A stretch of 64,000 nucleotides of DNA from NCBI GenBank assembly GCA_019843655.1, contig JACDQD010000006.1, positions 26,864,246 through 26,928,245 on the forward strand. Reading direction: 5' to 3'. The stretch is from Lethocerus indicus. Lineage: Eukaryota > Arthropoda > Insecta > Hemiptera > Belostomatidae. The notes under the pieces are model-generated. The model was not told the DNA's origin and ran no database searches. It saw nothing but the letters and a program-made list of their open reading frames with translations. Positions 2,435-60,890 of this stretch are shown here, in pieces (positions within the stretch are counted from its first letter, which is position 1; every line of letters begins with the position of its first letter). The position numbers were made by a program, and so were the translations under genes.

Positions 2435-2843
2435 TCGATTTTGTCTGTTTCTGTCCCTTCTCGCCGGTTTCGGCTGCTCGCCATCTTCAGTAGCGGTGTT
2501 AGTCACTTTTGGCACTTTGCATGTCTTTCGGGCATCTCCACTGCACTGTCACTGCCTCTGTGCACTGTCAACAACAGTACCTTGTTACTCGCAGACCGGA
2601 AAACAGGTACTGTAAACTAATTGCAGTATAAGTGACAGTGGCAGTGCAGTGAGGAAAGCGCCGTGAGGAGTGCCGAAACCGGTATGTAAACTAGCAATAA
2701 ATTAGTTCAGAATTAAATGAATCATTACGGGTCCATTAAAGGTACAGTGAAAATCGTGAGGTCCTGAAACAACAATTATTTGTCTTTTGCTAGACCAAAC
2801 CAGCGAGATGAGGCGGAAACACACGAAATCTACGGTGTTTTTA
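2435..2843. mobile_element. Foldback Penelope-like element, degraded copy
   Basis: The left arm shows the family's order: a TTTCTGTC box, an antisense hammerhead-like core ending CTTCAGTAGCG, the GGGCATC box, then the ACTGCACTGTCACTG box. The right arm repeats these in reverse complement (AGTGACAGTGGCAGTGCAGT near 2632) and ends in AACCAGCGAGATGAGG. About 100 bases of unrelated sequence interrupt the right arm between roughly 2690 and 2787. The left ribozyme core reads GCCGAAACCGGC instead of GAAACCGGTC, so its cleavage site is lost. No direct repeat is visible at the ends. This is one of the oldest copies here. Confidence 0.75.
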
Positions 2844-5773
2844 AATTTTTAAAAATAGAATTTCACTTTCTGTTATCATCTCTAATGTCTTGTACATCGC
2901 AAATCATTTTAACCATAAATTTCAATACACTAATCACAACTCTTGTTTCGCTATTTCTGAACGTTGTTTTTAAATCAGTCGCAGCACTCCTCTTTGGAGT
3001 AGTTCTTTGGTTGTTGACACTTTGGAATAGATTCAGAGTTATAAATTGAACACTAAATGTAATTTTGTATTCTCTTGTCTTCAGTACAAAGTCAAATTTT
3101 CGCCTAGTCTGGAGTCAGAATGTTGGTTATTAAGCGAGATACATTTATTTCCAGCTAAACGCCGTTTCGGAAAACGCAGTTTTCTTGAGAATAAATCCCG
3201 CGGAACAGAAAACTCCCGGTGGGAACGATGTTAAAATTGAATGATGGGAGTGACGCGATGGGGTTGAATGCAGTGGATGATTTTAAGAAAGAAAAAGAAA
3301 CAATTTCCAGCTCTTTCTCCTTGTCAATAATGCATTTTCTCTTGTAGAAAGCAGTCGAGAATTTTTTTATGATTTATACTGAAGACTAATTTACAGGCCA
3401 CTCTAATTGGATTTATCGAATCTGACCGACAGATCGGACCGCAGGTATAACTACTTCATATTTAATGGATCATGTCTCTGTATTTTATTAATGCAATATC
3501 AAATTAATTTCTATTATGTATTAGATTGGACAGTTTTAGATGTCTTTGATTGCCAAGGCAGTTAAATTATTTCTATTTTATGTGTCCACGTTATATATTT
3601 TAAGATAATGCGGTTTAAATGATTAAATCTGATCGAATTTATGTTCAATTCAATATAGACTTGTTTGGTTGTCCCCACTTTCGCTTTCTTGATCCCTAAG
3701 CCGGCCATAGTTACACTGCGACTGATGCTGCTCTGTACTTGCGGTAGTAGTAACAGTGTAACGACTCACGGCATCAGTAAAGCAATGTTACTTACGATGA
3801 ACGTAAACCGTAACCAGTCTAGTTCAGGACCAAAAGGGTTGCAGGAAATATATGTATAGTTTGTTTTTGAATCGTCAGCCGATTTCCTGTTCATTTATTT
3901 CTTTTTTTTTCGTTTATTAAACGTTTGAGAGAGTGCTGAACGAAATATGGACCCACACATCCTGTAAAATGCCCAATACGAACAAAGTAAACGCGATACG
4001 GAAGATACCGGGCGTAAATGTACACAGTTCCTGTTTGATTTCCGATCTCTGCACCGTTCAATTTCCATTTCAGCCATTTCCTGATCTCTCACGACCCCTG
4101 TACTAATCCCGTGAAATCGGATATTTTTTCCGTGTCCGATACGAACGTTTTCGACGATAGAGATGTTTTTAATCGAGATATCGCGCGATGTCTTTCCTGT
4201 TTTTACAGCGATTCAACACATTAGATAACTCTTACACGTTAGATTTACGTAACGTTATAATCGATGTCACGATACTGCAGACTTTTATTAGAAGATAGTG
4301 CCCGAAATTGGAATATTTTTATCACTGCTGGGTGGGAACATATACCTTGTTTTATGTACCTACACGTCTCTGTAGATCATTGGGGCACTGGTTGGGGTCT
4401 GAAGGACGTTACATAACGAGCAGGTGATAACAAGCCCTCGTTATCAGTTGGGCCCGCCACCAAAGATTCTCTCTCATTTCTCTGTCTTTTTTTACCCGCT
4501 TTTTTCTGAATTCTCCATTTCTGAAATCATATTTCACCTTCCAGCCGTCCGTTACAATAATTATTATTTATATTTCTCGTTATTTTTCAATTTTTCTCCA
4601 AAAAAAATATCAGCCTCATGTAGACGCCGCATTCAAAGATTCCGTGCGGACGTTTGAATTTCTCAACTTTCGGATATTTTCGAGTAAAAAATTTGTTGCC
4701 AATAGTTTCTACCGACAGTCCGGAAATACACCAATATTAAACTGTAAAGGTCAATGGTCTTTGGTATCCTAAAAAAGTGGTCTTTGACAAATGTGTCTGT
4801 GATTGGGCAGGTGCCACAGCGAAATTGTCTCGCGCACCTGCGCCGTTCGTTAGCATATTTTAAAAGCGTGTGCGGATCACCTGCTCGCAGTTTTATATTA
4901 GAACAATTTAATGTTGCGCGAAGTATGTTTTTTTTTACGCCTCCCTAAAACGATACCAAACAGAACGGATTGAAGTTCGAACGTGGGTTTATAAGTAGAA
5001 AAAAAATCTCAAAAATTGATGTAACAAATGGATGCAACACTACAATGTTATTACATGCAATACAGAGCAACAGACGTTAAATATTAACAGGAATTGATCC
5101 GAATTTTTACAATATTTTCCTGAGAAGGAAAGATTAGAAGTACCGGTGTAGAAATTAAATTGTGGAATTCGATCCGCAGAATGGAGAGAGAAAAAAGGAG
5201 GAACGATTCTGTGGTCGTGGCCGGAGGTGATATTCGAGTGGGAGGTTGTTAATTTTGAATTAACCGTGTCGGTTGGATAAGACGGGAACGGACCGCAGGC
5301 ATTCGACCTTCCATCGGCCAAACTGAATTTCCTTCTCGTTACAAGAAGGATGCCCGTCGGCCCATTATAACAGAAGAACGGACGCCGTTTACCCAACGGA
5401 GATAGATCACGCATTTCCCTTTCGGAAAAACCGGGTATCGATAAAATTCCGTCGCTCTTTCTCACCGCTGTGCAACACAAAGTTGCAGCAATCTATCTTC
5501 AAGGATTTTTAGCGGTAATAATTGAAATTTTAATATATTTTTATTTAAAAGTTTCTTCCGACAGTTTTAAAGGGTTGTGCGAAACGTTGGAGGGTAATAG
5601 TTCTATACATTCATGTATTACCTAAACAAGTTGTTGCAATAATTCTAATATAGAAAGGATAATAGTCATTGAAACATAACCACTGCAACTAGTATTCTAT
5701 GTGTATAATACTGACGGATAGTTGAAACGTGAAACCGGTTAGTCCAGTGCTACTACTAGCTGTAGGGGGCAGA
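2844..5773. other. AT-rich non-coding stretch
   Basis: No gene or named repeat seen. It contains a 146-codon open frame at 5040-5480 (-) without recognisable motifs or splice context, plus several T and A homopolymers. I treat it as non-coding. Confidence 0.55.
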
Positions 5774-6052
5774 GAGGTTCGTGGTGTTTCTGTCTCCTCT
5801 CGCCGGTTTCGTCTTTTGCTAGGCCGATTTCGGCCGCTCGCCATCTTCAGTAGCGGTTTGTTAGTCACCTTTGGCACTTTGGATGTTTTTGGGCATCCTC
5901 ACTGCACTGTCACTGTCACCTGTACTGTAATTAGTTTAGAGTACTTGTTTTCTGGTCTGCGAGTCCAAAGTGCCAACACTGACTAACAGCGCTGCTGGAG
6001 ATGGCGAGCGGCCGAAACCGGTCTAGAAAAAGACGAAACAAGCGATCGCAGA
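5774..6052. mobile_element. Foldback Penelope-like element
   Basis: Left arm from GAGGTTCGTGGTGTTTCTG through the antisense hammerhead core and the CACTGCACTGTCACTGTCAC box. Right arm from the TCCAAAGTGCC box to the sense core near 5988-6028. The two arms pair over most of their length with about 50 bases between them. Both ribozyme cores are altered: the right one has CTGGAGA in place of CTGAAGA, and the left one has lost the U of the cleavage triplet. Beyond the right core the sequence diverges from the family. Confidence 0.8.
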
Positions 6053-7549
6053 CGCAAATCTGCAACGCGCCCTCCCCAATTTGGAAACGGCCGTTATCTT
6101 GAATAATAAAGGCGGCGTTCGGAGCGGCCGGTCTCATCAAATATCGACAATTATGAGCGGAGATTAGTCCCAGTTTAGTCGGCTAATCGCCCGGCCATTA
6201 AGTCATTTAATATGCTTCAGAGCCGGCCATCGGTTAAATGGAAATACCTATGGAATTAAAAGGAGCGAATGTACCGGCGGTTTTAGATTATATCTCTTTT
6301 TTTTCGCTTGCGCAACAGCAATAACGCTGTATAATGACGAGAGGTTTTGTGATATTATGCCGTTTGGCTCTCAGTCGATGTTCCTCGGAATACGCTAGTG
6401 TTTATGGAAAGCATAGTTTCCCACCACAGCAGAGTTTCCTAATTCACGAACATGTTGTTTATCCAAATTTCTAATGTTAGTTTTATTAACAGCAAGATTG
6501 CGCTTGTGGATTAAATGTATCGGGATGGTAATTTCCAAACTTTCTTCTACCTCCCATTAGAGACTCTTAAATTAATTATTAATCCCGTACTCTGTTAAAC
6601 TTTTTTTGAAGTTATTAACCCCGAAAAATTGGATAGTAGAGTAAAAAGAAGGGGGGGGGCCGTAAAACGTCGGGCTAATAACATTAAGAGAGGGCGTTAA
6701 ACCTTATCAGCTCGGGACACAACTCGGGACTTACACTTGGGTAAACTTCAGGAAACTTCGCTTGAGGATTTTAATAGTGACTGAAGACTTCGGGGTTTTT
6801 TTTTTTAAATTAGCATTTACTACAGAACTTGAGAGTGCGTCTTTTCAGATTTTAGAGGCGTCTACGTCATAGTACTAGTACACTGTCGAAAATTAACGTA
6901 CGCGTTTTTGCGCCCCGTTAACCGTACACGGAAGTGATATAAGTAAGGCTCGTGTACGAAGTGGATCGGGTGAACGAACGAACAGTTTTCGGATTTCACG
7001 TTTGCGAGGCTGTCATTGTTTCTCACACTTTCGTTTTCCGAAATCCGACCGCGGCGCAAGTACCAATATTTATCCACCGTTGAGTGGTAACCAGTATCCG
7101 GTAATTGGTCGGTAAACTCGGGCTTTCGGTCCGTACCGCTCCAGGCCTCCAGCGGACTAAGAACGTCGATATTCCCTACAATTATACTGAGATATTTCAG
7201 CGTTGAACCGTCGAAATAACGACGTGTACGAAATGGTACCGGCGTGGTACCGGCCGGTATATCCTAATCCCTAATGAAGCCCCAATGAGGCGTCCAGTTA
7301 AAACGAAAATTTCCCATCCCGGCCATTCAATCCTCCACTATAACGTTCTTTAAATTATTTACAAAAAAAAATGTGAGTCGTACTTATAAAAACGGTCGAT
7401 ATGTGTCCTCAGCCTTGATGATATTTGATTACAGTAACCGTAATTCAGTGGAAGCGTTGTACACAGATCGGTCCAAAAATATGTACTTTAGCATGAAATT
7501 GAATCTTTTAAATACGTAAATTTCGCTATCTTACGGTATACAGAGCTAT
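6053..7549. other. Non-coding stretch
   Basis: No gene seen. A run of nine or more G lies near 6650-6659. Base composition is more even in 7080-7330, but with no open frame or repeat match inside the window. Confidence 0.55.
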
Positions 7550-26640: not shown

Positions 26641-26689
26641 CCTGTCTCCTCTCGCTGGTTTGGCCTTTTGCTAGAATGGCCTTTTGCTA
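26641..26689. mobile_element. Foldback Penelope-like element, arm fragment
   Basis: TGTCTCCTCTCGCTGGTTTG followed by GCCTTTTGCTAG, part of which is repeated in tandem (GGCCTTTTGCTAG twice). It lies immediately before the 126-bp duplicated segment. Confidence 0.65.
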
Positions 26690-26815
26690 GGAATGGAAGC
26701 ATGAAAGTATTTTAGTGCCTGCTTGTAAATTTATCAATCACCGGCGTTTCAATTATAAACATAATATCTATTAGTTTTGTAGTTTCATTCAAGAGTCAGA
26801 TTATTCAACCACTTA
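26690..26815. repeat. 126-bp segment duplicated at 32755
   Basis: Nearly identical to 32755-32878, with about two differences. It covers GTGCCTGCTTGTAAATTTAT, ATCACCGGCGTTTCAATTAT and TTCAAGAGTCAGATTATTC. In both places a foldback element follows at the same base (CAACCACTT, then GGTTCGTGATG). Confidence 0.85.
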
Positions 26816-27050
26816 GGTTCGTGATGTTTCTGTCTCCTCTCGTTGGTTTGGCCTTTTGCTAGACGGGTTTCGGCTGCTCGCCGTCTTCAGTAGCGGTGTT
26901 AGCCACTTTGGATGTTTTTTGGGCATCCTCACTGTAGTGACACTGTCACTTGTACTGTGTCTGTTTTTCGTGTGTGTGTATATATGTCTTCTTAATGTGT
27001 TTTTGGGGATGTTGTTTGTCATATTTGCGTTCTTACTGGAGACATATTTA

Positions 27051-27198
27051 TTGGATTCGTAACTAAATAATTGCAGATTCTCATCTTTGGGTGTGTGCAC
27101 CCTTATGCCTTGCATTTTTTGGTACGCACGACGAATAGTTGGGGCGTGTAATGAACACTTCAGAATACTCTAAGGCGATGACTTAGTTGCCGTCCCAA
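27051..27198 (+). mobile_element. mellifera-type mariner MITE nested in the foldback element
   Basis: A 148-bp deletion derivative, TA-flanked, starting TTGGATTCGTAACTAAATAA and ending GACTTAGTTGCCGTCCCAA. It shares TACGCACGACGAATAGT with the copy at 23098. It interrupts the spacer of the element at 26816-27381. Confidence 0.85.
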
Positions 27199-27273
27199 TA
27201 TATATAGACAACCACCACAGTACAAGTGACAGTGACAGTGCGGTGAGGATGCCAAAAAAAGTGACTAACACCG

Positions 27274-27310
27274 CTACTGAAGATGGCGAGCAGCCGAAAC
27301 CGGTCGAGCA
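27274..27310 (+). ncRNA. Hammerhead-like ribozyme motif
   Basis: GCTA, CTGAAGA, U, a GGC/GCC hairpin, GAAA, CCGGTC, then GAGC. The core and the cleavage triplet are intact, but the stem I pairing next to the cleavage site is weakened (G replaces U). Confidence 0.5.
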
Positions 27311-27381
27311 AAAGACCAAACCAACGAGAGGAGATAGAAACACACGAAATCTACGTCATCCCAACCCCTCGCAGACCACAA

Positions 27382-27831
27382 GGGATGTGATCTCTCTCTA
27401 ATATCATCCGTTAGTTCCCCACTTGTTCGGTTAATTTGAGGTTGTTTGACATTAATCCCCTTTTTTGTCCCGAGAAGGGGTGGGGGGAGATTGGAACTCT
27501 AACCACTAATCCGGCCAATACAATGATAATAATAATAACAATAAAAATAATGTCGAAACATTAGATTGTTCCCAACATCCCCTGTACGGTGTTTCGAATG
27601 CGTTTGAGCTAACCGCACCCAGACCAAGCGACCGACCGCTAAGTCCGGTAGACCGCCAGTGCTCGGTCGGTGTAATCGCTAAGGGGGAAACTTTTACGAT
27701 TCGCCACCGTTACACACCGACCAATATGGAAAATAAGCTGAATCTGAAAGATTTAAATCAGAAATTATGATAACAATCATAAGTAATTGTCAAAAATTTA
27801 AATTCGTGACGAAACAACAGGGACCGAAATA
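27382..27831. other. Non-coding stretch
   Basis: Contains AAT-rich simple sequence at about 27519-27551. No gene seen. Confidence 0.5.
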
Positions 27832-28251: not shown

Positions 28252-28405
28252 GTTTGCTAGACAGGTATCGGCCGCTCGCCGTCTTCAGTAGCGGTGTTGG
28301 TCACTGTTGGTTAGCAAACAGCGCTACTGAAGATGGCGAGCGGCCGATACCGGTCCAGCGAACGACCAAACCGGCGTCAGGGGACAGGAACACCGCAAAC
28401 CTACT
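28252..28405. mobile_element. Foldback Penelope-like element, compact near-perfect hairpin
   Basis: The two arms here are separated by only about 20 bases. GGTATCGGCCGCTCGCC (28264-28280) pairs with GGCGAGCGGCCGATACC (28335-28351), and the pairing continues into CTTCAGTAGCG / CGCTACTGAAG. Both ribozyme cores carry the same change (GAAA to GATA), as if one arm had been copied from the other. The outer parts of the arms (GACCAAACCGGCG, AGGGGACAGGAAC) diverge from each other. Confidence 0.85.
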
Positions 28406-29662
28406 ACAAATCGATAATTTACGAAACTGATTTTCGAAACCGAATCGAGAGTTCTGGGGATCCACCCTGCAACTCCTACAGAATTCCTATCGATAATCCT
28501 TCATAATGTTTGTGACCGCATAATCGATTTCGATTCGAAAGAACCGTCCGTTCACGAACCGGCGGCTTCTCGACATGAATCCTTCAATTCCAAATTATCC
28601 CTTCACTCAAATCCTTTAATACGACAGCTCAAGGGCAGGAGTACGATCGACGGCTGTAATCTCCGACAAGTTCGTGTCGTCAAATCGCACTGTCACTGAA
28701 TATAATTAAAAGAATTTAGTCGTGACTTAAAATAAAAAGTTAACTTTATTAGACGTGTTTTTTGACCAACAATTGAATAACAGCCAGAAACCCTTCATCG
28801 TAAAACGGAATGCTACTGAACTTGAGGACTAGAAGACAGTAAGGGTTCTAAGTACAGTGAATGTTTGCACGTAAGTGACCATTCAAATCAATCTTCCGTT
28901 AGGTTTATACGTAAGGTGTCGTTTTTATAGATCTGTTTGTTTGTTCGTTAGGCCTACCCTTACCGCTGTGTTTGTTTCGGTCTCAAATATCATTTGCACT
29001 GATGCAGATGATAGTGCTGTGTGTATACAGCACGCTGTTTTATAGAACCGGATATCGATTTCGCGTTTAGCCGGCGAAGCCACGAGCAAAACGGCGTATT
29101 TGAATTACAAATTTGTGCGTTCAATTCGAAACGCAAAGCCCGAATCAAATTGCTGCTATAAACAATGCGAACTGCGCACGGCGAGTACAATAAACATGCG
29201 GAACTGTTCCTTCAGCGCTGTTTCAGTTTTTGTACTTTTGGGAAAATTTACTTCGAGAAAAAATCCGAACCGGTTTCAGGGTACGAATGTCACATTTTGA
29301 CCGCCTCGTTCATAATTTACGATTTAAGTATGGTAATAATTTCGATTTTCTGATACTCGTGCCCATACGGAAAATATGTGACGTTCGAAAGCGCCTATAC
29401 GTATTGGTTCGATAATTTAATTTGATCTTACAAAAAGAAATATCGGTGCCATTTTATGACGCAGTTCCTGCACGCAAGAAAACCTGTAATGACGGCGTTT
29501 GAGCAAATTACGAAATCAATAACTGCCATTAGGGACAGGCGTACTGTGTTGGTTGGCCGGTTCTGTACGGAAATACCGGCCATTGTTCCTCTAGCAAGGA
29601 TACGAAAACCTCTAAAACCTTTCATTTTAAAACTCGCATTAACGTTGTCTTTAATAGTTGAA
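28406..29662. other. Non-coding stretch
   Basis: No gene supported. Short overlapping open frames around 28990-29415 on both strands lack motifs. Confidence 0.5.
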
Positions 29663-29680
29663 TACGATTATGGTATTAGT
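29663..29680. repeat. Target-site duplication, left copy
   Basis: TACGATTATGGTATTAGT, repeated exactly at 30014-30031 on the other side of the element. The first three bases may belong to the element end, so the true duplication is 15-18 bp. Confidence 0.85.
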
Positions 29681-29766
29681 TTAATATACCTGTTTTGTGG
29701 CCTGCGAAGGGGTTGGAATACCGCAGGTTCGTTGTGTTTCTGTCTCCTCTCGCTGGTTTGGTCTTT

Positions 29767-29805
29767 CGCTAGACCGGTTTCGGCCGCTCGCCATCTTCAG
29801 TAGCG
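29767..29805 (-). ncRNA. Hammerhead ribozyme motif, left arm
   Basis: Read on the minus strand: CGCTA, CTGAAGA, one unpaired U, GGC-GAGCG-GCC (stem II), GAAA, CCGGTC, TAGCG. The five-base stem I is perfect. Stem III could only be the six-base palindrome ACCGGT, as in minimal hammerheads that work as dimers. Predicted cleavage follows GGTC. Confidence 0.65.
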
Positions 29806-29933
29806 GTGTTAGTCAGTCTCGGCACTTTGGATATTTTTCGGGCATCTGCACTGTCACTTTCACTTGTACAAGTTGCTCACTCGTGCACTGAGAATGCCCG
29901 AAAAACATCCAAAGTGCCGGCATTGACCAACAC

Positions 29934-29972
29934 CGCTACTGAAGATGGCGAGCAGCCGAAACCGGTCTAGCG
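29934..29972 (+). ncRNA. Hammerhead ribozyme motif, right arm
   Basis: Same layout as its partner on the other arm, with the stem II loop GAGCA. All conserved core positions are present: C3 to A9 as CTGAAGA, GAAA, and U-C at the cleavage site, predicted after base 29967. Stem I is CGCTA/TAGCG. The neighbouring GGTCT and AGACC can form a competing hairpin. Confidence 0.65.
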
Positions 29973-30013
29973 AAAGACCAAACCAGCGAGAGGAGACAGA
30001 AATACCACGAACC

Positions 30014-30031
30014 TACGATTATGGTATTAGT
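30014..30031. repeat. Target-site duplication, right copy
   Basis: Exact repeat of 29663-29680. Confidence 0.85.
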
Positions 30032-30110: not shown

Positions 30111-30138
30111 ATGGTCTTTCTACTAGACCGGTTTTGGC
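30111..30138. mobile_element. Foldback Penelope-like element, arm fragment
   Basis: TGGTCTTTCTACTAGACCGG followed by TTTTGG. It matches the sequence around the ribozyme cleavage site only. Confidence 0.4.
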
Positions 30139-31307
30139 CATAGTCACTACGCATTCCGTCAATAAAGTATTACTGTGGTTGCACCGATTCAAGACAGGTC
30201 ATTTTTATTATCTAATATGTAGTGCTGTGAACGAATTTATAGACAATAGCATTGGCGGCCTTAAGCGCTTCACAACGTTGGCGACGCAATTCGAAAGGAG
30301 ATTGTGAGAAGGCGAGATGTTGGGCTTAGAACTGAACATAGTAACATTGAGTATATTATTATAGATTCGTACAGATGTTCTTTCAGTCGGTAGTTATCCG
30401 TCCTCCGCTCCATCGCCTTCTCAATAGACCGACTTTCCCCGACCATTCATCCTCTCTGAGCTCTATTCATTATAGGGTCGTTTTTTTATTTTTCCACCTC
30501 TTCCTGAAGCGATCCCTCCGCATGACGCAACCGACGTGCTGTCACGATTCTCCTCCCCGATCGCCCTTGGGGGCTTCGGTCATCGCCGGCTTCAGAACGG
30601 CTCCTGCAAATGCGCACAATCCACTGGATGATACCGTCGATTAAAACCTGTATAATAATTTTTTTACACGGCGTCCCGTTTCAGTCGTATTTCACTGAAT
30701 AATTATCTGCCAGAATCGTTCCAACCAGTTTCCATGCCAGGCGAAATAATATTAACTAGTTTACCATTGCCATCTTGACCATAATCCAGTTAACTTTCGT
30801 GATACACACGGTCGATGTAAATAAAGAATCAGTTCATTATTATGAATAATTATCCTAAATTTTTTAAATTAATCCATTGCTTTTTACCGAAAAAATATAG
30901 GAATGAAAAGAGGTCAGGTTGACTATTTGATACTTATAATCACATATAATGGATTTTTAACATTTCGAATTTTCTTTCGGTATGTTAATGCTGTACCACA
31001 AGCAAGAATGGATGGGTAAAAACAGGAAAATATCTCGACTGACAAAACTAACAATGTAACAGTGGTTACCGGCCGTTTGAACCCGTCTAGTTCAAGGGGG
31101 AAAGTTAGACCTTTTTTGCTGATCTAAATTCTAGACCGGTTTCTCTAAAACTGAACTGCGTGCGGCTCGAGATCGTTCGTCGAGCCGGTCCGAAGTCGGC
31201 GGTGTTGTTGGCAAAAACTAGCCACCGTAGCCGCAACAGGTTTTCAGCGAAGGAGAATTAAGGATAAGTTCACGAAGTGCGGGCAAGATAAAGTTCAGAA
31301 GAGCGAG

Positions 31308-31372: not shown

Positions 31373-32754
31373 GGACTGCACTCTTTTAATTCTAATGCAC
31401 CGACTCACCTTGACCTCAACTCCTATCCCAGTTGGAATTCTCCAACTCGCCTTGTCTTCTTGCACCAACTTCCAACCAGCCCTTTTGTCTATCCGACATT
31501 TTGAAGTATTATACGCTTCTGGAAAATGAAGAGAAAAATAAAAATTGCTACTTCATTTTCTTCACTTATGGCCGCAGGAAGTCAATTTTCCCCATTATTT
31601 CAGACGATACACTCGATTTATATTTATGAAATATTGCCGGTTTCTCGTTACGGCCGTTTTTGACATAATTCGGTCAGAGTAGAGCCGCCGCCCGACATTG
31701 AACCGGTATAAATTTTCATCGCCACCTTGGACTAGAAATTCGAAAAGTTTCACGAACGCTCCTAATTATACAACTATATGGAGCGATGGTAAGGCTAATT
31801 GCAGTCAAAGTCAAATGGTGGAGGTTAATGGCGCTCGAAAATTACAAAAAAAAAAAAAAGAAATAGCAACCCTTCAATTCTAATGCACCCACTCACCTCG
31901 ACCCCTCGCCCCAATGCACCTGACCATTTCGGTAATCGGACGAAGGCTGGATTTCAACGTTTTTAAAACATTGTCCCGGTCGATGGACAAAGAAATCCGA
32001 AATTTTATCTCCAAACAACGCGTAACCAATTTACACAACTTGCCATATTTATTCATCTCGCCATTCTCTGTCCCCATTCAGTTTTTCCATCTCGATACAG
32101 CGAGTACTTCGAGAAGTGTTAAGACGGCGGACTCAAGATGCGCCCTCTTGGGTCATGAAATCGCCGGAGTTATTCGACTTCGAGCCTTGTAAAACACTAA
32201 TACTTCGAACTTGGTAAATCGCGAATTCCAAGAAGACAGATCACAACGTATTTCTCCGGATTCCATTCGAGGACGGCCTCGAACACGGGAATCTCATCCG
32301 TCAGTTGTGTTGTTACCGCAATAAAATGGCTATATATCTCAAGTAATTGAGAAGTTTCGGACTGAAATCAAGTTGTTTTCGATTCTAAGTCGCGGCTGAT
32401 TGCAAATTGCTAACTCTCTACTCCCAAAATCAATAATCGAATATCCGTTTATCATATTTGTCCTTTGGGCGGATTACAATATTTATTAAGTACAGGGTAA
32501 TAACCGATTAGTTTCTATTTGGAGATAACGGTGTCCGGTTCCGATAATGCGTTCAGTCGACGTAGTGAGGCCGTCAAAATATAACGGATTTAAATGAAAT
32601 TTTTTCCTCAATTTGAACACGATTCCCCGTCCGATTCTACCGTCTCAGATGAGTATTATTTTGATTATGGGGGTCGAATCCTGAAAGACGCAACGAGGCC
32701 GAGGTTATACCGCAGACAACGCCCCTTTTTATCCCACTGGAGAATGCAGACTTG

Positions 32755-32878
32755 GAATGGAAGCCTGAAAGTATTTTAGTGCCTGCTTGTAAATTTATCA
32801 ATCACCGGCGTTTCAATTATAAACATAATATCTATTAGTTTTGTAGTTTCATTCAAGAGTCAGATTATTCAACCACTT
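32755..32878. repeat. 126-bp segment duplicated at 26690
   Basis: See 26690-26815. Its last 12 bases, ATTCAACCACTT (32867-32878), are repeated with one change at 33457-33468, so here they act as the left target-site copy of the following element. Confidence 0.85.
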
Positions 32879-32920
32879 GGGTTCGTGATGTTTCTGTCTC
32901 CTCTCGCTGGTCTGGTCTTT

Positions 32921-32959
32921 CGCTAGACCGGTTTCGGCTGCTCGCCATCTTCAGTAGCG
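32921..32959 (-). ncRNA. Hammerhead ribozyme motif
   Basis: Intact on the minus strand, with stem I CGCTA/TAGCG, core CTGAAGA and GAAA, stem II GGC-GAGCA-GCC, and cleavage site GGTC|TAGCG. Confidence 0.65.
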
Positions 32960-33113
32960 GTGAGTTAGTCACTGTTAGCTTCTGCACTGTCACTTTCGCA
33001 TGTACTGTAATGTTTTTATGTCTTTTATATATAAGTGTTCTGTTATTGTTATTGGGGTTATGTTTGTCTTCGGATTTTGTTAATCCGTTTTCTAAGTGTG
33101 AGTCAGATTGTCG

Positions 33114-33405
33114 GAAGGGGATGGTGTGATCCTTTAAGAGGATTATATGGGGTAAATATCGCGTCACTCTGGAAATTAATTTTCTCATTTATAATGTTGC
33201 TTTTCTTATGTTTGAAAATTTCCAGGTTTTCTATAATATCTAATTCTTTTCCTTTTTTGCCCGGGTGTAATAACTTTAATGATCTTTTGATGTTCATTGT
33301 TTCCTGCCCGGTGTTTATGATATGGTTGGCGAAATTGGAATCTGTTTGTGTATTTTATGGCTTTTATATGTTCCTTGTATCTGAATGGCGCCAACCATAT
33401 CATAA
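33114..33405 (-). pseudogene. GIY-YIG-type C-terminal coding fragment of a Penelope-like element, frameshifted
   Basis: On the minus strand, RYKEHIKAIKYT is followed, after a one-base frame change near 33347, by DSNFANHIINTGQETMNIKR, then KGKELDIIENLEIFKHKK and NPL, with a stop near 33104. The pattern (R-x-K-E-H-I, then A-x-H-I-x-x-T-G, then E-x-x-E-I-F/Y) is what I know from the region after the GIY-YIG core in proteins of Penelope-like and related retroelements. The GIY-YIG motif itself and the whole reverse transcriptase are absent. It reads inward from the long terminal end. It is non-functional because of the frame change and missing parts. A similar C-terminal domain from another retroelement class cannot be ruled out. 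Confidence 0.6.
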
Positions 33406-33407
33406 AC
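33313..33407. repeat. 19-bp perfect inverted repeat
   Basis: GTTTATGATATGGTTGGCG (33313-33331) is the exact reverse complement of 33389-33407, with 57 bases between. The first copy lies inside the coding fragment (ANHIINT) and the second at its junction with the element's terminal sequence. Confidence 0.9.
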
Positions 33408-33468
33408 GAACCTACGGTATTCCAACCCCTCGCAGACCACAAAACGGGTATATCAAATTCAACTACTT

Positions 33469-38600: not shown

Positions 38601-40858
38601 AATATTCTAAGGCTAATATGTTTGCTCAGTACAGTACGGGTTTTGAGTTGGCTAAAATATTTCTTTCTTTATGTTTCAGGTAAGTTATGGTTCGAGATTC
38701 GAGAAACGAGTGAGTTATATTTAAAAAGAAATTAATTACAGCGAAACCAACGGCCGACTGGACATTTTCGTACGTGAAACGACCTCGTCTCAATTTTCTG
38801 GACCTTTTCAATGGAATCGGCGGAAGGTTAAATTTAATCACTATAATTTTCCAATATCCAGTATTATAGAGGCCCCGGCCAGTAGGTTTATTACGGATTA
38901 CAGACTGTTTTGTCCTTCGCTGTCTCCGATTAACAAGACTTATCTCGATCATTCTTATACGCGTATATCTGACTTTTATTTACACATTCGTATATAGTAA
39001 TATAAGAAAGAGTGCGCTCGTTTCGTGTCATCATCGAGGCGAAAATTAATAGAGAGATATCAATTTGTAATAATATTCAGAAGATCTAGCACCCGTTTAT
39101 TGGGTAGGTGAAAATATTAAATTTTAAGTAAAATAGTCTGGGTAACGCACCCCATATTTTTAATGCCCATGTTTTTTTTTGTGGAGCGCATACTGTAAGT
39201 GTGCCGAGTTTCGTTGTACGGTTTATGAAAAGTAATATTAAGAGGGGAATTGAGAAGTTGTGGCATTTTTAATTTCGAATTCCTACCGCGATGAGAGAAA
39301 CCCCCTCCCCCTACCCCGAGGCGTCTCATTCAGAACGCGAATTCGCAATGTTGGTCATTCCTCACGATTGCTGTAAATCTGTAATTATTTTTTTTAATTA
39401 AACCCCCCCCCCACAGTAAAATGATATTAACAAATTCCGCATGTTTTTATGTCGTCAAAATTTATTCCGATCCAGTGTCACACTTCTATAAAATGAGAAC
39501 TTATAAAACGTTGGAATTTTTTTTGGATAACCGTACTTCGTCTAGATTAAAATAAAATATATAACTTTAAAATTTATTATTCATATAAACTTAAACATGC
39601 GTATTTACGAATAGAATATCTATAAAACATTTTAGATCTGCTTACGCCTCAATTATGTGTTATTGGATGCATTCGTTTTTCTTTATTATGACAAGAGCCC
39701 TCGTTCCAAGCTGAGGTCAGAAAATATTTCTATATATTATTTTGATTGTAGTAATATTTTCTCTGATTGAAATTTTTCGGCGGATAAAATGTCTTTTTCG
39801 CCATTGTAAATATTATAGTTCTACGGGTCGTTAGGAGGGCGCGTTCTCGGCCCAATACTCTGTGGGACAGCCTTGACCTTTAGGGGAGAGTTGGTTTGTG
39901 TCACTCTCGCGGAGGTACAGCCGAAGTATAGTTTAATGGAAATTGTGCGCGAGACTGTGGGAAAATGGTAGATTCGGTTGGTCAACCTTCATTTATTGAC
40001 TACAAATTTTGTATTTTTTTATTTACCCGGCGCAACTTTATATGTGTACTTAAAGGCCGGATATCTCTGGTGAACGGTGAAGGTTGGATTCAGTAATGAA
40101 ATTTAACATTTCTGGCAATGTTTAAATGTACACAGTGAACAAAATATCGATTCGTTATATTTTTTTATAGCAAGTAATTATTCTTTAATTAAAGAGCTAA
40201 TTGCGTTATCTTTATGTGAACTGGTATAAATGCTAGTTATTCCATTTGTAAACGTCCTCCAGTCTTACTTGTGATTTGTGTCCACGTTTTGGTGATTTAT
40301 AGTGCACTGAATTAGTGTGTCTCAGTGCCTAACGTTGACACTGAGAAGTAGGGCAAAGTTTACATGGTTTGCATTAATCAGTTGTACCTACAAAATGAGA
40401 TTGCTACGAGCCTCCCCCACAAGTAACCCTCACCTCTTTAGCTAATTAATGTTAACGTCTTATGTCAAAATTTAATAAATTATACTTTCAGCAGTTCTCA
40501 CAAACATTAGTCTTCTTCTTTAAATATTTAATTTCCGATCCTCACACAGTTTATTAATTCGGTTCAATCATTATCCTGACCGATAGTCGAAGGCCGAACT
40601 GACTCGTTGACCAAACAATCCCATACAAAAAGGATTCGGTACAATCCGTCACTTTATCCACGGCCATTGTTTGAGCTGCGTGTTACAGTGAAACCAATCT
40701 GTGAACTGAATTGTCCGTCCGAACAATGCAACATTGTAATTAGAAGTTTCGTTCGTATAACAATTTTCAACTCATAGGGCGATTGTCGATAATAAGAGGG
40801 AGGATGAAAAATAACGAGATTGACGAACATAAATCGTATCAAGGAAAATTATATGCGT
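35602..40858. other. Long non-coding stretch
   Basis: About 5.3 kb with no supported gene. Contains a TC dinucleotide run of about 15 bases at 36031-36045 and several A/T homopolymers. Open frames up to 108 codons (38626-38952, -) have no recognisable domain. Confidence 0.5.
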
Positions 40859-40992
40859 TCAAGTGACAGTGACAGTGCAGTGAGTAGGCCCGAAAAACAT
40901 CCAAAGTGCCGACAGTGACTAACAGCGCTACTGAAGATGGCGAGCGGCCGAAACCGGTCAGCGAGAGGAGACGGAAACGCAACAAATCTATG
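40859..40992 (+). mobile_element. Foldback Penelope-like element, right arm only
   Basis: From AAGTGACAGTGACAGTGCAG through ACATCCAAAGTGCCGACAG to GCGAGAGGAGACGGAAACGC. The hammerhead core at 40925-40963 lacks the U after the cleavage site (GGTCAGCG). The left arm is absent. Confidence 0.75.
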
Positions 40993-42082
40993 ATTATTAT
41001 TCCTTTATTCTATATTGATGAACGAAAACAACTGTTTATGAATTGTTTAATCGTTTCACCCTGGTCTATAGACCGGTATATATATATAGAACGGCTATTC
41101 AAGGGAACGATCCTTACTTTTATCTCAGTTTGAAATGTTGTTGATGTCGCCGGAGATGTTTCGGGTCTAGCCAAGGATTTATATTTAGGTTAATGAGGCC
41201 GAAACAACCGGGTCCTCGGGGCGCACACTCCACTACTTTATACACTAAAAAAAAAAAATTCCGTGATTCATAAATACACAACTCTATTCATGAATGGTAG
41301 TTTCGATTCGAAGAGTAGTGTGGGTTTTGTTCCAGCAAAACGTACGGATGTTTGAGACGTTTAAACTTTGGAAAATACTATATAAAAAGAAAAATGTTAT
41401 GGGGTAAACTTTAAAGGTTTGGCAGAGTTATCCGGGTAACAAAGTATAACTCATTGAAAAGAGATAACGTTTGAATATCATAACTAAGATCCCGATTTTT
41501 TATCCTTACTTGACCTAATCATTTTCAATACCATTGCATTTTTATTTTAGCCGCGATCGGCCTCCGTGCAGCGGAGTTGGTCGTATCGGATGAAAGTGAG
41601 AACAGATCGTTAGGTATAAAATTGAAAGATCTGTTGAAAGGTGTGCGGCGCTACCGGTATTGGTCTGGAACTGGTCCACGGAAGAACGGGTTAGCTACTG
41701 TGGAACTCACTCCATTATTATCCGGCAGTCCGTTTCGACTTTACGATCGTACTACAGTTATATTTCTCGCTATAATTTAACTATCGGAGTTTTTACTATT
41801 AATTTGCGCAAAATGTCGAAACTTAAAAAATGTTCTTATACAAGGCGCCTCGGTGGTATTTATTGCAGCTAATGACGTTGGCGGTTGCTTATCCTTCCAC
41901 TGTAAAACAGACGCGGCAGCTAATTGCACACGTAATAGCGTAAACGATTCTAACTGTCTTAAAATCTACTGTTAATTTCATCCGAACGTTAACGTTTTAA
42001 AACAATATTTTCATTCCTCTGATCTTTCGTCTCAATTAGCTAATTTTGTCATGTGCTACCGGTTTCGGTAAAGAAACCATCC
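40993..42082. other. Non-coding stretch
   Basis: No gene or repeat recognised. Short open frames only. Confidence 0.5.
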
Positions 42083-44945: not shown

Positions 44946-44959
44946 TTGTAGCAAATTCC
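44946..44959. repeat. Target-site duplication, left copy (imperfect)
   Basis: TTGTAGCAAATTCC, matching CTGTAAAAAATTCC at 45313-45326 in 11 of 14 positions. Confidence 0.5.
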
Positions 44960-45312
44960 GTAGGTTCGTGGTGTTTCTGCCTCCTCTCGCTGGTTTGGTC
45001 TAGACCGGTTTCGGCCGCTCGCCATCTTCAGTAGCGGTGTTAGTCACTGTTGGCACAATACACAAAACACAATAAGAAGACACGTATATAGACACGACAA
45101 ACAGACAACCGCCACAGTACATGTGACAGTGACAGTGCAGTGAGGATGCCCGAAAAACATCCAAAGTGCCAACAGTGACTAACACAGCGCTACTGAAGAT
45201 GGCGAGCGGCCGAAACCGGTCTAGCAAAAGACCAAACCAGCGAGAGGAGGCAGAAACACCACGAACCTACGGTATTGCAACCCCTCGCAGAGCACAAAAC
45301 AGGTATATTAAA
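44960..45312 (+). mobile_element. Foldback Penelope-like element, plus orientation
   Basis: The short end GTAGGTTCGTGG is on the left, and the long end (GCAACCCCTCGCAGAGCACA, then AACAGGTATATTAAA) on the right. The left core at about 45000 has lost its stem I partner through a six-base deletion (GGTCTAGACC). The right core at 45189-45225 is intact. The spacer is a plain AC-rich stretch with GTATATAG, the same place where the copy at 56.6 kb has a long TA run. Confidence 0.9.
45189..45225 (+). ncRNA. Hammerhead ribozyme motif
   Basis: GCTA, CTGAAGA, U, GGC-GAGCG-GCC, GAAA, CCGGTC, TAGC. All core positions are intact, with predicted cleavage after 45221. Confidence 0.65.
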
Positions 45313-53505: not shown

Positions 53506-53744
53506 CAATTTGATATACCTGTTTTGTGGTCTGCGAGGGGTTGGAATACCGTAGGTTCGTGATTCTTCGAATCTGTGCAGCCGAGACAGCGCATGTGAAA
53601 GTGACAGTGGGCAGTGAGGATGCCCAAAAAACATCCAAAGTGCCTAACAGTGACTGACACCGCTACTGAAGATGGCGAGCGGCCGAAACCGGTCTAGCAA
53701 AAGACCAAACCCCAGCGAGATGAGACAGAAACATCACGAACCTA
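53506..53744 (-). mobile_element. Foldback Penelope-like element, left arm mostly deleted
   Basis: The long end is on the left (GATATACCTGTTTTGTGGTC, then GCGAGGGGTTGGAATACCGT and AGGTTCGTGAT), after which the left ribozyme arm is missing. The right arm is complete and ends CACGAACCTA at the short end. An exact 11-bp direct repeat flanks it. An intact sense hammerhead core lies at 53662-53698. The loss of one arm leaves a single ribozyme. Confidence 0.85.
53662..53698 (+). ncRNA. Hammerhead ribozyme motif
   Basis: GCTA/TAGC stem I, CTGAAGA, GGC-GAGCG-GCC, GAAA, CCGGTC. Core intact, with predicted cleavage after 53694. Confidence 0.65.
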
Positions 53745-53755
53745 AAGTACACATC
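53745..53755. repeat. Target-site duplication, right copy
   Basis: Exact repeat of 53495-53505. Confidence 0.75.
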
Positions 53756-56613
53756 TCTTTTAACCGCTCGAACGAAAATCCTGTTCTAGACAACCCAATA
53801 TATTTCTACAAATTGAAATTTCACAATGGACTAAAGATATTGTAGTCGCTATTTTCGACCTGATCATCCTTTACGAACAATGTGCTGTCAAAAATACAGA
53901 CTCTCGTTAATCATCTTACGACTTGGGCACATATCCTTGACACCATTCGTTGTACGCTTTCCGCAATCGTTGCCGTGCAACTTTACGGCAGCTCGTCCCA
54001 TGTATTTAGAGGTTTCGAAATGTGCAAATAATGCTGTAGGAATTCGCGTTCTCGATTAATTTTTTTTTTTTTTTTTAGCCGACCTATCTCCTCGGGCCGA
54101 ATGTGGCCGCTTGTTAAAATTCCATCGCGTTATCTGCGCCGGAAAATGCCGTCCGGATGTTTTAACTGGAGGTTTTTTCCTGTAAGCTTATTCGAAAAGA
54201 ATTCAGACCCGAGTAAGTCATTTTATGCTAATAATGAATAGCAATTTTATCGAGTCCGCTGTAAAATCGTTTGTGCTGAAGGATATTCGGGACTGAACAA
54301 ACTCCGGAACTCTGTCTTTTATTCCGGAATTGTAAACGCAATGGGCGCGCAAATTGGCCGACGACCAATTTATGGCCCTTTCCGCATTCTGAAATGTGGC
54401 AATTTCGCTCTGATCAAGCGGGTCGATATCTCTCTTTTTTTTTTTTCAAGGTAGAACGCGCCATCGTTTCCAAAGCCAGATAGATGGGAGTTCACCGGAC
54501 ACAATCGATAAATTATTCCCCGTTTCGCAATGTGATGCAACTGAAGTGATTATGGAATTATTTCGGTCCGCGAAAACGGAAATGACGTAACGTTCGTGCC
54601 CTTCCTCGTTTCCAGCGTTCTCGACCACCCCCTCTCCCCGCGTTCAATATGTCACAATTTTAATTAGGAAATTTTATTATTTTTATAATTCAATTTCAAC
54701 ACGCGATATAACGCCTTGTCCAATCTAATATATTTTCCGTCAAGTTTCAGAATAAGAATATATTGTGATTTCTGTGGCGCAATTGACGACCCACATTGCT
54801 ATTGTTTAGGGTCCAGGATTCGTCGTAGAATTCGTCATTGGTTATTCGAATGAGCTGTTCCAACTTAGGTCCGGTTGCCTACGTAGACATTTTTGGACAG
54901 GCGGCCCAGTTTCGCGTCTTCCATTAACGCGAGTAGAATTTGAGAGGAGGTCAAGACGTGCCCAATTGTGGCAGTTAGCGCCTCTTGTGTCAGTTGTGCC
55001 CTTGCCAATTGTACACCTAGAGGTGAATTGCCCGATGACCTATGTCGGCGGGCTTATCCCGTCTCCTCTATCCATTTCTACGAGTTAAATAATATTCATT
55101 CAGTTCTGTAATTTTTCTATTATTTAGCTAAACTAGGCTAGATATTTATTTTTCTAGATATGTTCTTATAGTTCCCCTCTATTGGTTCGTAGAAACCTCC
55201 TTCTTTAAGGGTGGCGAGAATCAGAAATAGGTCTAGATTTTACCTTCATCAATTGCGTAAAATAAGACTCATACAGTTTGAGGAACCAATTGATTAATCC
55301 AATTGGTATCTTCGAACAATTCAGAGGGTTCCCTTAGTATAAAATACATGGTACATCTATGGATTTTTTTTGTATATTTAACTTTATTTCACAGGTGAAT
55401 TACTATTTCGGTTGTATATTGCCGACGCGGGTAGTGTTTATAACTAAGTTCATCCCGAGTTATTGTGGGATAACTTATGTCTCTCGGTATACGCGGGCAT
55501 AAACTGTGATTCGGAAGGTCGGCGACCCTTGTAAGAGGGCTCGTTTGCCGGCGTAACGGCCCAATTAACCGAAGTTCTTTCAGAATTTCTTATTTAACCC
55601 GGCTTGCCTCTTGCCTTATGCAAATACATAATAAATACACCGGGGCCCTGATATTCTCTTTCTTACGTCCGGTAGAATTTATGAAATATTTTATATAGTG
55701 GAACTTCAGTGTGGACAGCAACGTTCGGGACATTGCGTAATTGTATTCAACAGAACATTTGAAGTTGCTGTATGATTTATTTGAATGAGCTACAGGGGAT
55801 TAGAAGAAATATATATAACAGGGGAAATAGTCAAATATATAATAATATTATGATTGTCTTACCTAAATCTTCATTGCCTAAGAGTTTATTGTCACTAATT
55901 TATCGAATAAGAAAACACAAGTTAAGGACAAAAGGAACCTCCCTATAAATATAATAACATCTAACTTTTTTTATAGTAATTATTATAGCTGCTATAGTAA
56001 GTTAGCTTGGTAGTTCAAATGAGTTGCGAAATTTCATTCATTAGGTGATTAATCTGTAACAATATTTATAGTGAGAAGGGTGTCTGTGAAACAGTTTTAG
56101 TAATGGGGGTTAAGTAATTGACTTAGTGAAGTTGGAGCGAAGGGTCCCAACTCCCAGTGGACTAATCAGAGCTCGGTGGCTGGATTTCACCCCCACCCCG
56201 GGGGATTGGGAGCAGCTTCGCCACTTTATTTCCAGTCCATCCCTCCTCTGACCTACCCCGAGGATCGATCTGTGACTCCATTTAAACGGACGTCACAGTA
56301 GCACTTTAATATTGTCGAAGAATTTAACAAAATCTACCCGATCTCGTCCCACAACACTGAGCCTGTTTTCGAGCCGACGCTTTGATTACGTTAAACCAGC
56401 TATCGTAGATTGGCATCATAAACTTCTAGGAGCTTACAGTAATATTTCGATCACATAAAGAAACAAATATCTACTGAATCAGAGGCCATTTGAGTTGGAG
56501 AAAAATTGTTCGTCCTTGATTACCTCTAGGTCCACTCGTTGTGGCGTTCCAAAAGCCGGTGATCTTTTGATTAGCATCATTCATGAGCATCCAGCGTTCC
56601 TCTGTAAAATTAC
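53756..56613. other. Non-coding stretch
   Basis: No gene supported. T16 at about 54061-54076. A single octamer ATGCAAAT at 55618-55625 lies in AT-rich surroundings. Confidence 0.5.
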
Positions 56614-56766
56614 AGACCTGTTTTGTGGTCTGCGAGGGGTTGGAATAACGTAGATTTTTTGTGTTTCTCGCTGGTTTCGTCTTTTGCTAGACCGGTTTCG
56701 CCAGCTCGCCATCTTCAGTAGCGGTGTTAGACACTATTGGCCCAATACACGAAAAACACAATAAGA

Positions 56767-56817
<51 letters not shown>

Positions 56818-56940
56818 CCAAAGTGACTAACGCCGCTACTGAAGATGGCGGGCAGCCGAAACCGGACTAGCGAAACACTAAACCAGCGAGAGGAGACAGA
56901 AACACAAAAAATCAACGGTATTACAAACCTCTCGTACAGC
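56614..56940. mobile_element. Foldback Penelope-like element with TA expansion
   Basis: The left side has the long end (GACCTGTTTTGTGGTCTGCG, AGGGGTTGGAATAACG), and the right side also ends in a degraded long-end sequence (ACGGTATTACAAACCTCTCG). The arms have diverged. The left core at 56686-56722 has a disrupted stem II (GGCGAGCTGGC), and the right core at 56834-56872 has GGAC in place of the cleavage GGTC. The spacer contains a (TA)n run at 56769-56811. Confidence 0.85.
56769..56811. repeat. (TA)n microsatellite inside the foldback spacer
   Basis: About 43 bases of TA repeat following AATAAGAAGA, at the position of GTATATAG in the copy at 44960. Confidence 0.95.
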
Positions 56941-59266: not shown

Positions 59267-59573
59267 TTTAAATCGTCTCCTCTCGCTGGTTTGGTCTTTT
59301 GCTAGACCGGTTTCGGCTGTTCGCCATCTTCAGTAGCGGTGTTATTCAGTTTTGGCACTTTGGATGTTTTTTGGCCATCCTCACTGCACTGTCACTGTCA
59401 CTTGTACTCTGGTGGTTGTCCGTGTGACAAACGAAAAAAACCAACCTTCAAACCCAAATGAGACCAAAAAAAACAGACAACCACCACAGTACAAGCTACT
59501 GAAGATGGCGAGCAGCCGAAATCAGCAAAAGACCAAACCGGCGAGAGGAGACAGTAGCACGACCAGTCTACGA
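59267..59573. mobile_element. Foldback Penelope-like element
   Basis: Left arm from TCGTCTCCTCTCGCTGGTTT, right arm to GCGAGAGGAGACAGTAGCAC and a short-end-like CCAGTCTACGA. A 12-bp near-identical direct repeat flanks it. The left antisense core (59301-59337) is intact. The right core lost ten bases after GAAA, so its cleavage site is gone. The spacer is A-rich. Confidence 0.85.
59301..59337 (-). ncRNA. Hammerhead ribozyme motif
   Basis: Minus strand: GCTA, CTGAAGA, U, GGC-GAACA-GCC, GAAA, CCGGTC, TAGC. The stem II loop differs by one base from other copies, while the stem is kept. Confidence 0.6.
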
Positions 59574-59585
59574 AATAATTTTTCG

Positions 59586-60751: not shown

Positions 60752-60890
60752 CTAGTACAAGTGTGACAGTGACAGTGCAGTGAGGATGCCCGAAAAACAT
60801 CCAAAGTGCCAACAGTCTACTGAAGGTGGCGAGCGTCTGAAAGACCGGTCTAGCAAAAGACCGGCGAGAGGAGGCAGAAACACCTACAAA
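60752..60890 (+). mobile_element. Foldback Penelope-like element, right arm only
   Basis: From TAGTACAAGTGTGACAGTGA through ACATCCAAAGTGCCAACAG. The core is degraded (CTGAAGG, GCGTCTGAAAGACC) and the element ends GCGAGAGGAGGCAGAAACAC. No left arm. Confidence 0.75.

Follow-up and report, generated by a model that had tools for sequence, protein, structure and literature searches.

Penelope-like retroelements (PLEs), as described by Cervera and de la Pena in 2014 and by Lunse, Weinberg and Breaker in 2017, reportedly carry small hammerhead ribozymes in which stem III is nearly absent, and action as a dimer is said to have been proposed for them. In human L1, priming on both target strands (twin priming) occasionally results in a 5' inversion. 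The PLE literature already covers minimal hammerheads, their likely action as dimers, inverted pLTRs and tails (PMC7761336, PMC6155905, PMC8969392, PMC3846280). In the Poseidon element PAc of Anolis carolinensis, the ORF begins at stem II and the ribozyme cuts 26 nt into the ORF; RT starts internally, 111–118 nt in, and the "tail" is the stretch between two RT starts. In vitro, the PAc protein cleaves the target on both strands and extends each of them; RT started alike on the two strands, and RNA-seq detected no cleavage ends (PMC11167929). In Pen2a_Av of Adineta vaga, pLTRs are inverted head-to-head, with an optional 31-bp tail on one of them, and the pLTR holds the first 12 codons of the ORF (22 with the tail). 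The Adineta vaga PLEs also have variable target duplications and palindromes at the inverted junction. In 2013, inverted pLTRs were suggested to originate when a cDNA primes itself on an antisense template, but the matter was not settled (PMC3846280).

We analyzed a stretch of 64,000 nucleotides from Lethocerus indicus (the window), in which short palindromic elements with divergent hammerhead motifs had been predicted from the sequence. The element at 29681–30013 has the following features:

29663 to 29680, no strand: left target-site duplication TACGATTATGGTATTAGT, from direct-repeat comparison
29681 to 29869, minus strand: long ("tail") arm with PLE-like leader, ribozyme and 114 nt from the ATG (nhmmer arm model, columns 3–195)
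29681 to 29794, minus strand: ORF start overlapping the ribozyme in the long arm; ATG at 29794–29792, tail frameshifted, stop at codon 38
29767 to 29805, minus strand: minimal hammerhead, opposite strand; predicted cut between 29772 and 29771
29870 to 29881, no strand: head-to-head junction; a 30-mer across it, at up to 3 mismatches, has a single genome occurrence
29882 to 30013, plus strand: short arm, the same sequence up to about nt 69–72 from the ATG (nhmmer arm model, columns 20–157)
29934 to 29972, plus strand: minimal hammerhead with stem I 29934–29938/29968–29972, CUGAAGA from 29939, stem II GGC/GCC, GAAA and ACCGGU; predicted cut between 29967 and 29968
29945 to 30013, plus strand: the same ORF start in the short arm; ATG at 29945–29947, open for 23 codons
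30014 to 30031, no strand: right target-site duplication; its first 3 nt, TAC, may belong to the arm too

The inverted repeat comprises two arms of 124 nt (29722–29845 and 29894–30017) that are 93% complementary and separated by a spacer of 48 nt. Perfect 18-bp direct repeats abut both edges of the element, and because TAC and ACT at the edges fit the element end and the target alike, the true duplication may be shorter than 18 bp. The original prediction of a palindromic element holds for the inverted arms, but the repeat is asymmetric, as the left arm bears a tail of about 44 nt that is absent from the right arm. Similarly, each strand carries one motif as claimed, but both ribozyme sense strands run from the centre outward and not outward-in. 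A solo ribozyme-arm fragment, CTAGACCGGTTTTGGCC, lies just beyond the element at 30123–30139.

Examination of the ribozyme-sense arm revealed that it reads CTGAAG followed by ATG GCG AGC, with the ATG at A9 of the core, and the extra U noted earlier before stem II is present and is the U of this AUG. The predicted cut, after GGTC, falls at nt 23 from the A of the ATG. In the family profile the frame has no stop over its 38 codons up to the tail end, and the outer ends fall at about nt 114 of the ORF for the tail class and about nt 68–80 for the short class. The ATG is kept in 34 of 39 tail arms that span the ORF start, 26 of which are open to the end; for the 42 short arms these numbers are 35 and 30. 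As in PAc, the ribozyme spans the ORF start, with the cut at nt 26 in PAc and nt 23 here, and RT starts at 111–118 nt in PAc against tail ends at about nt 114 here, PAc being the one element used for this comparison. The tail likewise lies between two RT starts, with extension of both strands demonstrated for PAc in vitro and proposed here. The two systems differ in that the RT start is independent of strand in PAc, whereas here a tail and a short end are mostly paired, and the available portions of the PAc study do not mention genomic foldbacks that result from extension of both strands (PMC11167929). With Adineta vaga the element shares inverted pLTRs, one tail, the first ORF codons, variable target duplications and junction palindromes; there, however, an inverted pLTR flanks an ORF copy and copy number is low, whereas here there are two pLTR heads only and the core occurs in thousands. 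Since head-to-head inverted pLTRs with one tail are a described PLE layout, the foldback is probably no separate class, and the earlier notion of a separate non-coding foldback probably fails, given that the arms hold an ORF start and the layout is that of a described PLE insertion (PMC3846280). The link to PLEs that had also been suggested is supported by the inverted pLTR and tail layout, the ORF start in the arms and the PAc-like spacing.

To describe the motif, we performed a strict scan of the window (CUGANGA, a 3-bp stem II, GAAA, ..UC and at least 4 of 5 stem I pairs). Results demonstrated seven sites, at 29939, 45193 and 53666 on the plus strand and at 26890, 29800, 32954 and 59333 on the minus strand, compared with none in 100 dinucleotide shuffles, which supports the type I hammerhead layout. 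All six cores listed in the original prediction (29767, 29934, 32921, 45189, 53662, 59301) are present. A loose-pattern hammerhead at 35343 on the plus strand failed the strict scan and was rejected. In an Rfam search of the element no family reached its gathering threshold, hammerheads included; the best ribozyme match, RAGATH-1-hammerhead (RF03152), aligned with the core in register but scored 16 bits against a threshold of 56.3, making the motif a non-member by the Rfam criterion; a covariance-model search was one of the checks proposed with the original prediction. Rfam matches to miRNA precursors at the element, far under their gathering scores, were dismissed as effects of the long hairpin. 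A (TA)n run occupies window positions 56744–56810, in the centre of one foldback copy, where it gives rise to long AT hairpins that mimic miRNA precursors.

A single additional U separates A9 of the core from stem II, and stem III consists only of the 6-nt palindrome ACCGGU. The motif resembles the small PLE hammerhead variants in its minimal type I core and nearly absent stem III, and dimer action has been proposed for those variants; by description, it is set apart from them by the 6-nt palindromic stem III and by the U of the AUG after A9. As a homodimer joined through ACCGGU, the modelled double hammerhead reaches −27.9 kcal/mol against −29.9 kcal/mol for the best dimer fold (plus copy) and −28.1 against −32.2 kcal/mol (minus copy). 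These values suggest that a double hammerhead is energetically possible and support the earlier view that the weak palindromic stem III points to a dimer; shuffled homodimers average −24.7 kcal/mol (sd 4.4), so dimer energy alone is no proof. The monomer hammerhead lies at about −9 kcal/mol against a monomer optimum of about −13 kcal/mol, and the optimal monomer fold is not a hammerhead (z −1.8 and −1.3).

The exact 33-nt core CTGAAGATGGCGAGCRGCCGAAACCGGTCTAGC has 2182 + 2270 = 4452 occurrences in the whole genome (427 Mb, 209 contigs), and the reversed control has none; these counts are somewhat inflated, because contigs C4/C99, C8/C99, C9/C100 and C8/C123 repeat matches at constant offsets, and the assembly seems to contain second haplotypes or duplicated stretches there. 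Together with the anatomy of the element, this abundance confirms a foldback repeat with ribozyme motifs. To delimit the arms, we built an nhmmer profile (23 copies aligned, 70 arm seeds) and searched 43 non-duplicate sequences (337 kb), resulting in 108 arm hits; eight of 51 sequences (L001, L005, L015, L021, L025, L026, L027, L030) had been left out beforehand because they duplicated a place or sequence already present from another contig. Sequence L047 contains a wnt exon, which marks the genome as an animal's. The window holds 25 arm hits covering 2887 of its 64,000 bases, and in a random control arm hits were found in 8 of 20 10-kb stretches, covering 2532 of 200,000 bases. The family is far larger than had been noted. 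Its other members in the window, by the arm model, are:

2420 to 2839, no single strand: arm 2420–2558 (minus) plus arm fragment 2792–2839 (plus)
5773 to 6058, no single strand: head-to-head copy, decayed
26807 to 27384, no single strand: minus and plus arms about 260 bp apart, probably a head-to-head copy with a longer leader; outside the 38 pairs described below
28253 to 28408, no single strand: head-to-head copy, both arms 5'-truncated
32874 to 33456, no single strand: short minus arm (ribozyme at 32954, minus) and a tail-only plus arm, about 400 bp apart; outside the 38 pairs
40857 to 40995, plus strand: single arm
44953 to 45311, no single strand: head-to-head copy, short arm minus and long arm plus (ribozyme at 45193, plus)
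53510 to 53769, no single strand: head-to-head copy, long arm truncated to columns 138–195 and other arm from column 2 (ribozyme at 53666, plus)
56612 to 56939, no single strand: head-to-head copy with (TA)n in its centre
59275 to 59576, no single strand: head-to-head copy (ribozyme at 59333, minus)
60755 to 60889, plus strand: single arm

The copies with outer ends at 26807 and 32874 have nearly the same outer flank (26687–26806 and 32751–32870; 120 bp, 98% identity), reflecting either local duplication or insertion into the same repeat.

Neighbouring arms no more than 120 bp apart were head-to-head in 38 of 41 cases, with three in plus-minus order and none in tandem. Twenty-two of the 38 head-to-head pairs came from the foldback query and 16 did not, the query element being one of these 16. 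The outer ends of the 108 arm hits fell into two classes, 33 at column 195 ("tail") and 43 at columns 154–166 ("short"); the arm model stops at column 196 because its seeds did, and similarity in the flanks is lost 1–3 nt beyond. One tail and one short end were combined in 27 of the 31 pairs with both ends classified, and in 8 of 10 classified pairs after setting aside the 22 query-selected pairs and the query element. The 15 independent pairs thus comprised eight of the tail-and-short kind, one with two tails, one with two short ends and five with a decayed or unclear end, and the 22 query-selected pairs comprised 18, one, one and two, respectively. Flanks shared a common word of at least 7 nt in 65% of 31 pairs (the remaining 7 of the 38 having an end outside both classes), compared with 13% of mismatched flanks, and the best such words were 10–18 bp long.

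These observations bear on two explanations that do not involve PLE insertion. A foldback or MITE-like DNA element multiplying as a unit would account for inverted repeats, duplicated flanks and thousands of scattered copies. We nevertheless regard it as very improbable, since the ends of the copies are not mutual inverted copies and only one bears a tail, the common flank words vary and extend up to 18 bp, the arms contain an ORF start, tail and short arms are not separate lineages, and there is no inherited common centre, the centres being different and the one junction tested being unique. An animal retrozyme, in which small tandem repeats with type I hammerheads spread via RNA circles, would explain a type I hammerhead in short repeats, and many animals have retrozymes (PMC7229834). 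This origin can hardly be credited, however, as none of the 41 adjacent arm pairs (up to 120 bp apart) is head-to-tail, the units being inverted, and the ribozyme has the short stem III of the PLE type.

We consider that the foldbacks are best, and probably correctly, explained as minimal insertions made by a Penelope-like retrotransposon of the Penelope/Poseidon type, produced by twin priming. As template we propose the leader RNA: it would begin at a 5' end that often lies close to CAGTAC, include the hammerhead and run on to about nt 114 of the ORF. The nuclease of the element would nick both target strands, and RT would then be primed by each 3' end at a site within the beginning of the ORF, near nt 114 for one strand and near nt 68–80 for the other, with each nicked strand priming on its own leader RNA, so that two template RNAs would be used. 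The two cDNAs would run toward each other, stop at different 5' points and join head-to-head; each copy would then be a foldback that has its target duplicated, bears a single tail and possesses a junction of its own. Human L1 offers a likeness in that an inverted copy arises by both-strand priming, which for our elements we infer; there the event is occasional, whereas our elements would arise in this way regularly, from two constant internal start points.

The structure of the copies is consistent with such a process. Centres vary from copy to copy among the foldbacks, and the junction of the window element, searched as a 30-mer with up to 3 mismatches, occurs once in the genome, this being the single junction of the 38 so tested. 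Inner arm ends are cut back at differing points while outer ends keep their classes; in L023:1325–1446, for example, two stubs (columns 130–194 and 106–158) retain both outer ends. In many arms the join to the partner lies at CAGTAC or close by, and this may be where the RNA begins. Several others reach upstream of model column 1 (for example window 45058–45114 and L031 after 4130) into further common leader, which ends in GACAAACAGACAACCACCA or similar, followed by CAGTACAAG.

A comparison of partner arms allowed us to weigh twin priming against snap-back self-priming, in which one cDNA extends to the 5' end of the RNA, folds back and generates the second arm by copying itself. For the inverted pLTRs of Adineta vaga, junction palindromes had led to the proposal of self-priming, there on an antisense template (PMC3846280); some centres in our elements also carry short palindromes such as CTTGTACAAG or GTGCAC. 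Partner arms are 7.8% apart, closer than the 11.3% found between elements, and the own partner is nearest for 9 of 58 arms. In L022 both arms share a change absent from the other arms of the 86-arm set, and in L019 they share a change found in four others; these common changes indicate that some pairs derive from one source locus or one molecule. Self-priming should, however, make the second arm a duplicate of the first; instead, in the 29 pairs compared (the other nine of the 38 having too short arms), partners differ at 44 of 225 (19.6%) non-CpG subfamily sites and 33 of 185 (17.8%) CpG-type sites, about three times the rate at other columns (158 of 2669, 5.9%). Arms of different elements differ at 35.6% of non-CpG subfamily sites, and partners, above baseline, at about half that. 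These differences at subfamily sites suggest that a substantial fraction of elements drew on two templates. In addition, L003 and L029 have a 2-nt variant on one arm only that is known from other elements, and a snapped-back copy should include the tail, yet two tails occur in only 2 of 31 classified pairs. Tail and short arms form no separate lineages (permutation p 0.19), as expected if both arms were drawn anew from one RNA pool. Self-priming as the general explanation is therefore unlikely in our judgement; it is possible that it accounts for part of the elements, and twin priming on two RNAs is preferred.

The missing autonomous element is the largest gap in the case for a PLE, as no RT–GIY-YIG ORF joined to the leader was found. 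The GIY-YIG profile PF01541 had no matches in the whole genome, whereas RVT_1 (PF00078) gave 150 scored matches among 611 candidates, including frames of 949, 920 and 900 aa, that are not assignable to PLEs as such. A large share of the 150 lies on contig C1, reflecting biology or search order. A search with the N-terminal peptide returned no homologue, a Pfam search of the six frames of the window gave no lead, and no common continuation of the ORF past the tail end was seen in the flanks of sampled copies.

PLE insertion leaves room for the possibility that the hammerhead is inactive or irrelevant, and persists only as leader plus N-terminal codons. The Rfam result is compatible with this, as are the 86 arms of our set (22 of the 108 arm hits, which do not span the ribozyme, being omitted), among which a compensatory change in stem II occurs in 1 of 86 and a U-A pair at the outer position of stem I in 3 of 86, broken pairs being commoner. 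The compensatory changes in stems I and II that the original prediction had proposed as a check are thus nearly absent, as expected for dead copies. L022:1501–1846 bears C3 to G in both arms, yet was inserted. That change killed the PAc ribozyme in vitro, and cleavage was not needed for PAc insertion in vitro (PMC11167929). However, all 13 core nucleotides are kept without insertion in 54 of the 86 arms, 37 of which also retain 4 bp of stem I and 3 bp of stem II, and the double-hammerhead dimer appears energetically possible. Because the copies are dead (young, and under no selection), sequence conservation cannot tell whether the ribozyme acts.

Arm truncations can stand in, weakly and indirectly, for the 5'-OH-aware sequencing that the original prediction had proposed. 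Of the 108 arm hits, 102 begin upstream of the predicted cut, indicating that most templates were uncut there; cleavage of a minority would be expected to leave arms ending precisely at the bond. Requiring four mismatches immediately before a chosen start, we counted copies across the genome: 98 were truncated at the predicted bond, compared with 19 at two nt upstream, 44 at one nt upstream and 39 at two nt downstream; one nt upstream, some 25% of the 98 would be expected by chance. Once places that recur on another contig are removed, the numbers become 91, 19, 40 and 36, respectively. Among the 32 bond-truncated places with their letters listed, four had TCAG before the cut and two more had NCAG, which suggests TAGC microhomology in place of cleavage; when the bond count is reduced by this proportion (6 of 32), about 74 of the 91 remain, against 40 (p 0.002, simple binomial). 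The peak is suggestive of cleavage of a minority of templates in vivo, as far as genomic copies can speak to it. A stop of RT at stem III is also possible as its cause, although such a stop would be expected at column 105. With truncations piling up at the predicted cut in this manner, an inactive hammerhead is an explanation that we doubt, while giving it some weight.

The interpretation from which this analysis started is partly supported overall. PLE hammerheads and inverted terminal repeats are already known, but the scale of the foldback family and its mechanistic footprint seem new; in the literature consulted, which largely excluded subscription papers, we found no pLTR-only foldbacks at such scale and no link between inverted pLTRs and priming on both strands. 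It is conceivable, although we would put little trust in it, that the stem III palindrome is a dimer clamp, holding two leader RNAs as a double hammerhead in one dimeric PLE ribonucleoprotein. If so, each nicked strand would be extended on its own RNA, head-to-head insertion would be the normal outcome, and cleavage at GGUC^U would serve template release; the foldbacks, with their own leader start in the centre, could then be SINE-like passengers whose transcripts are re-copied. A truncation peak at the predicted bond would offer a route to ribozyme action from DNA alone, whereas the RNA data on PAc gave no sign of it. With so many short foldbacks whose ends, centres and arm variants can be read, the origin of the inverted repeats becomes a matter of counting, and the both-strand extension observed in vitro gains a possible genomic footprint.
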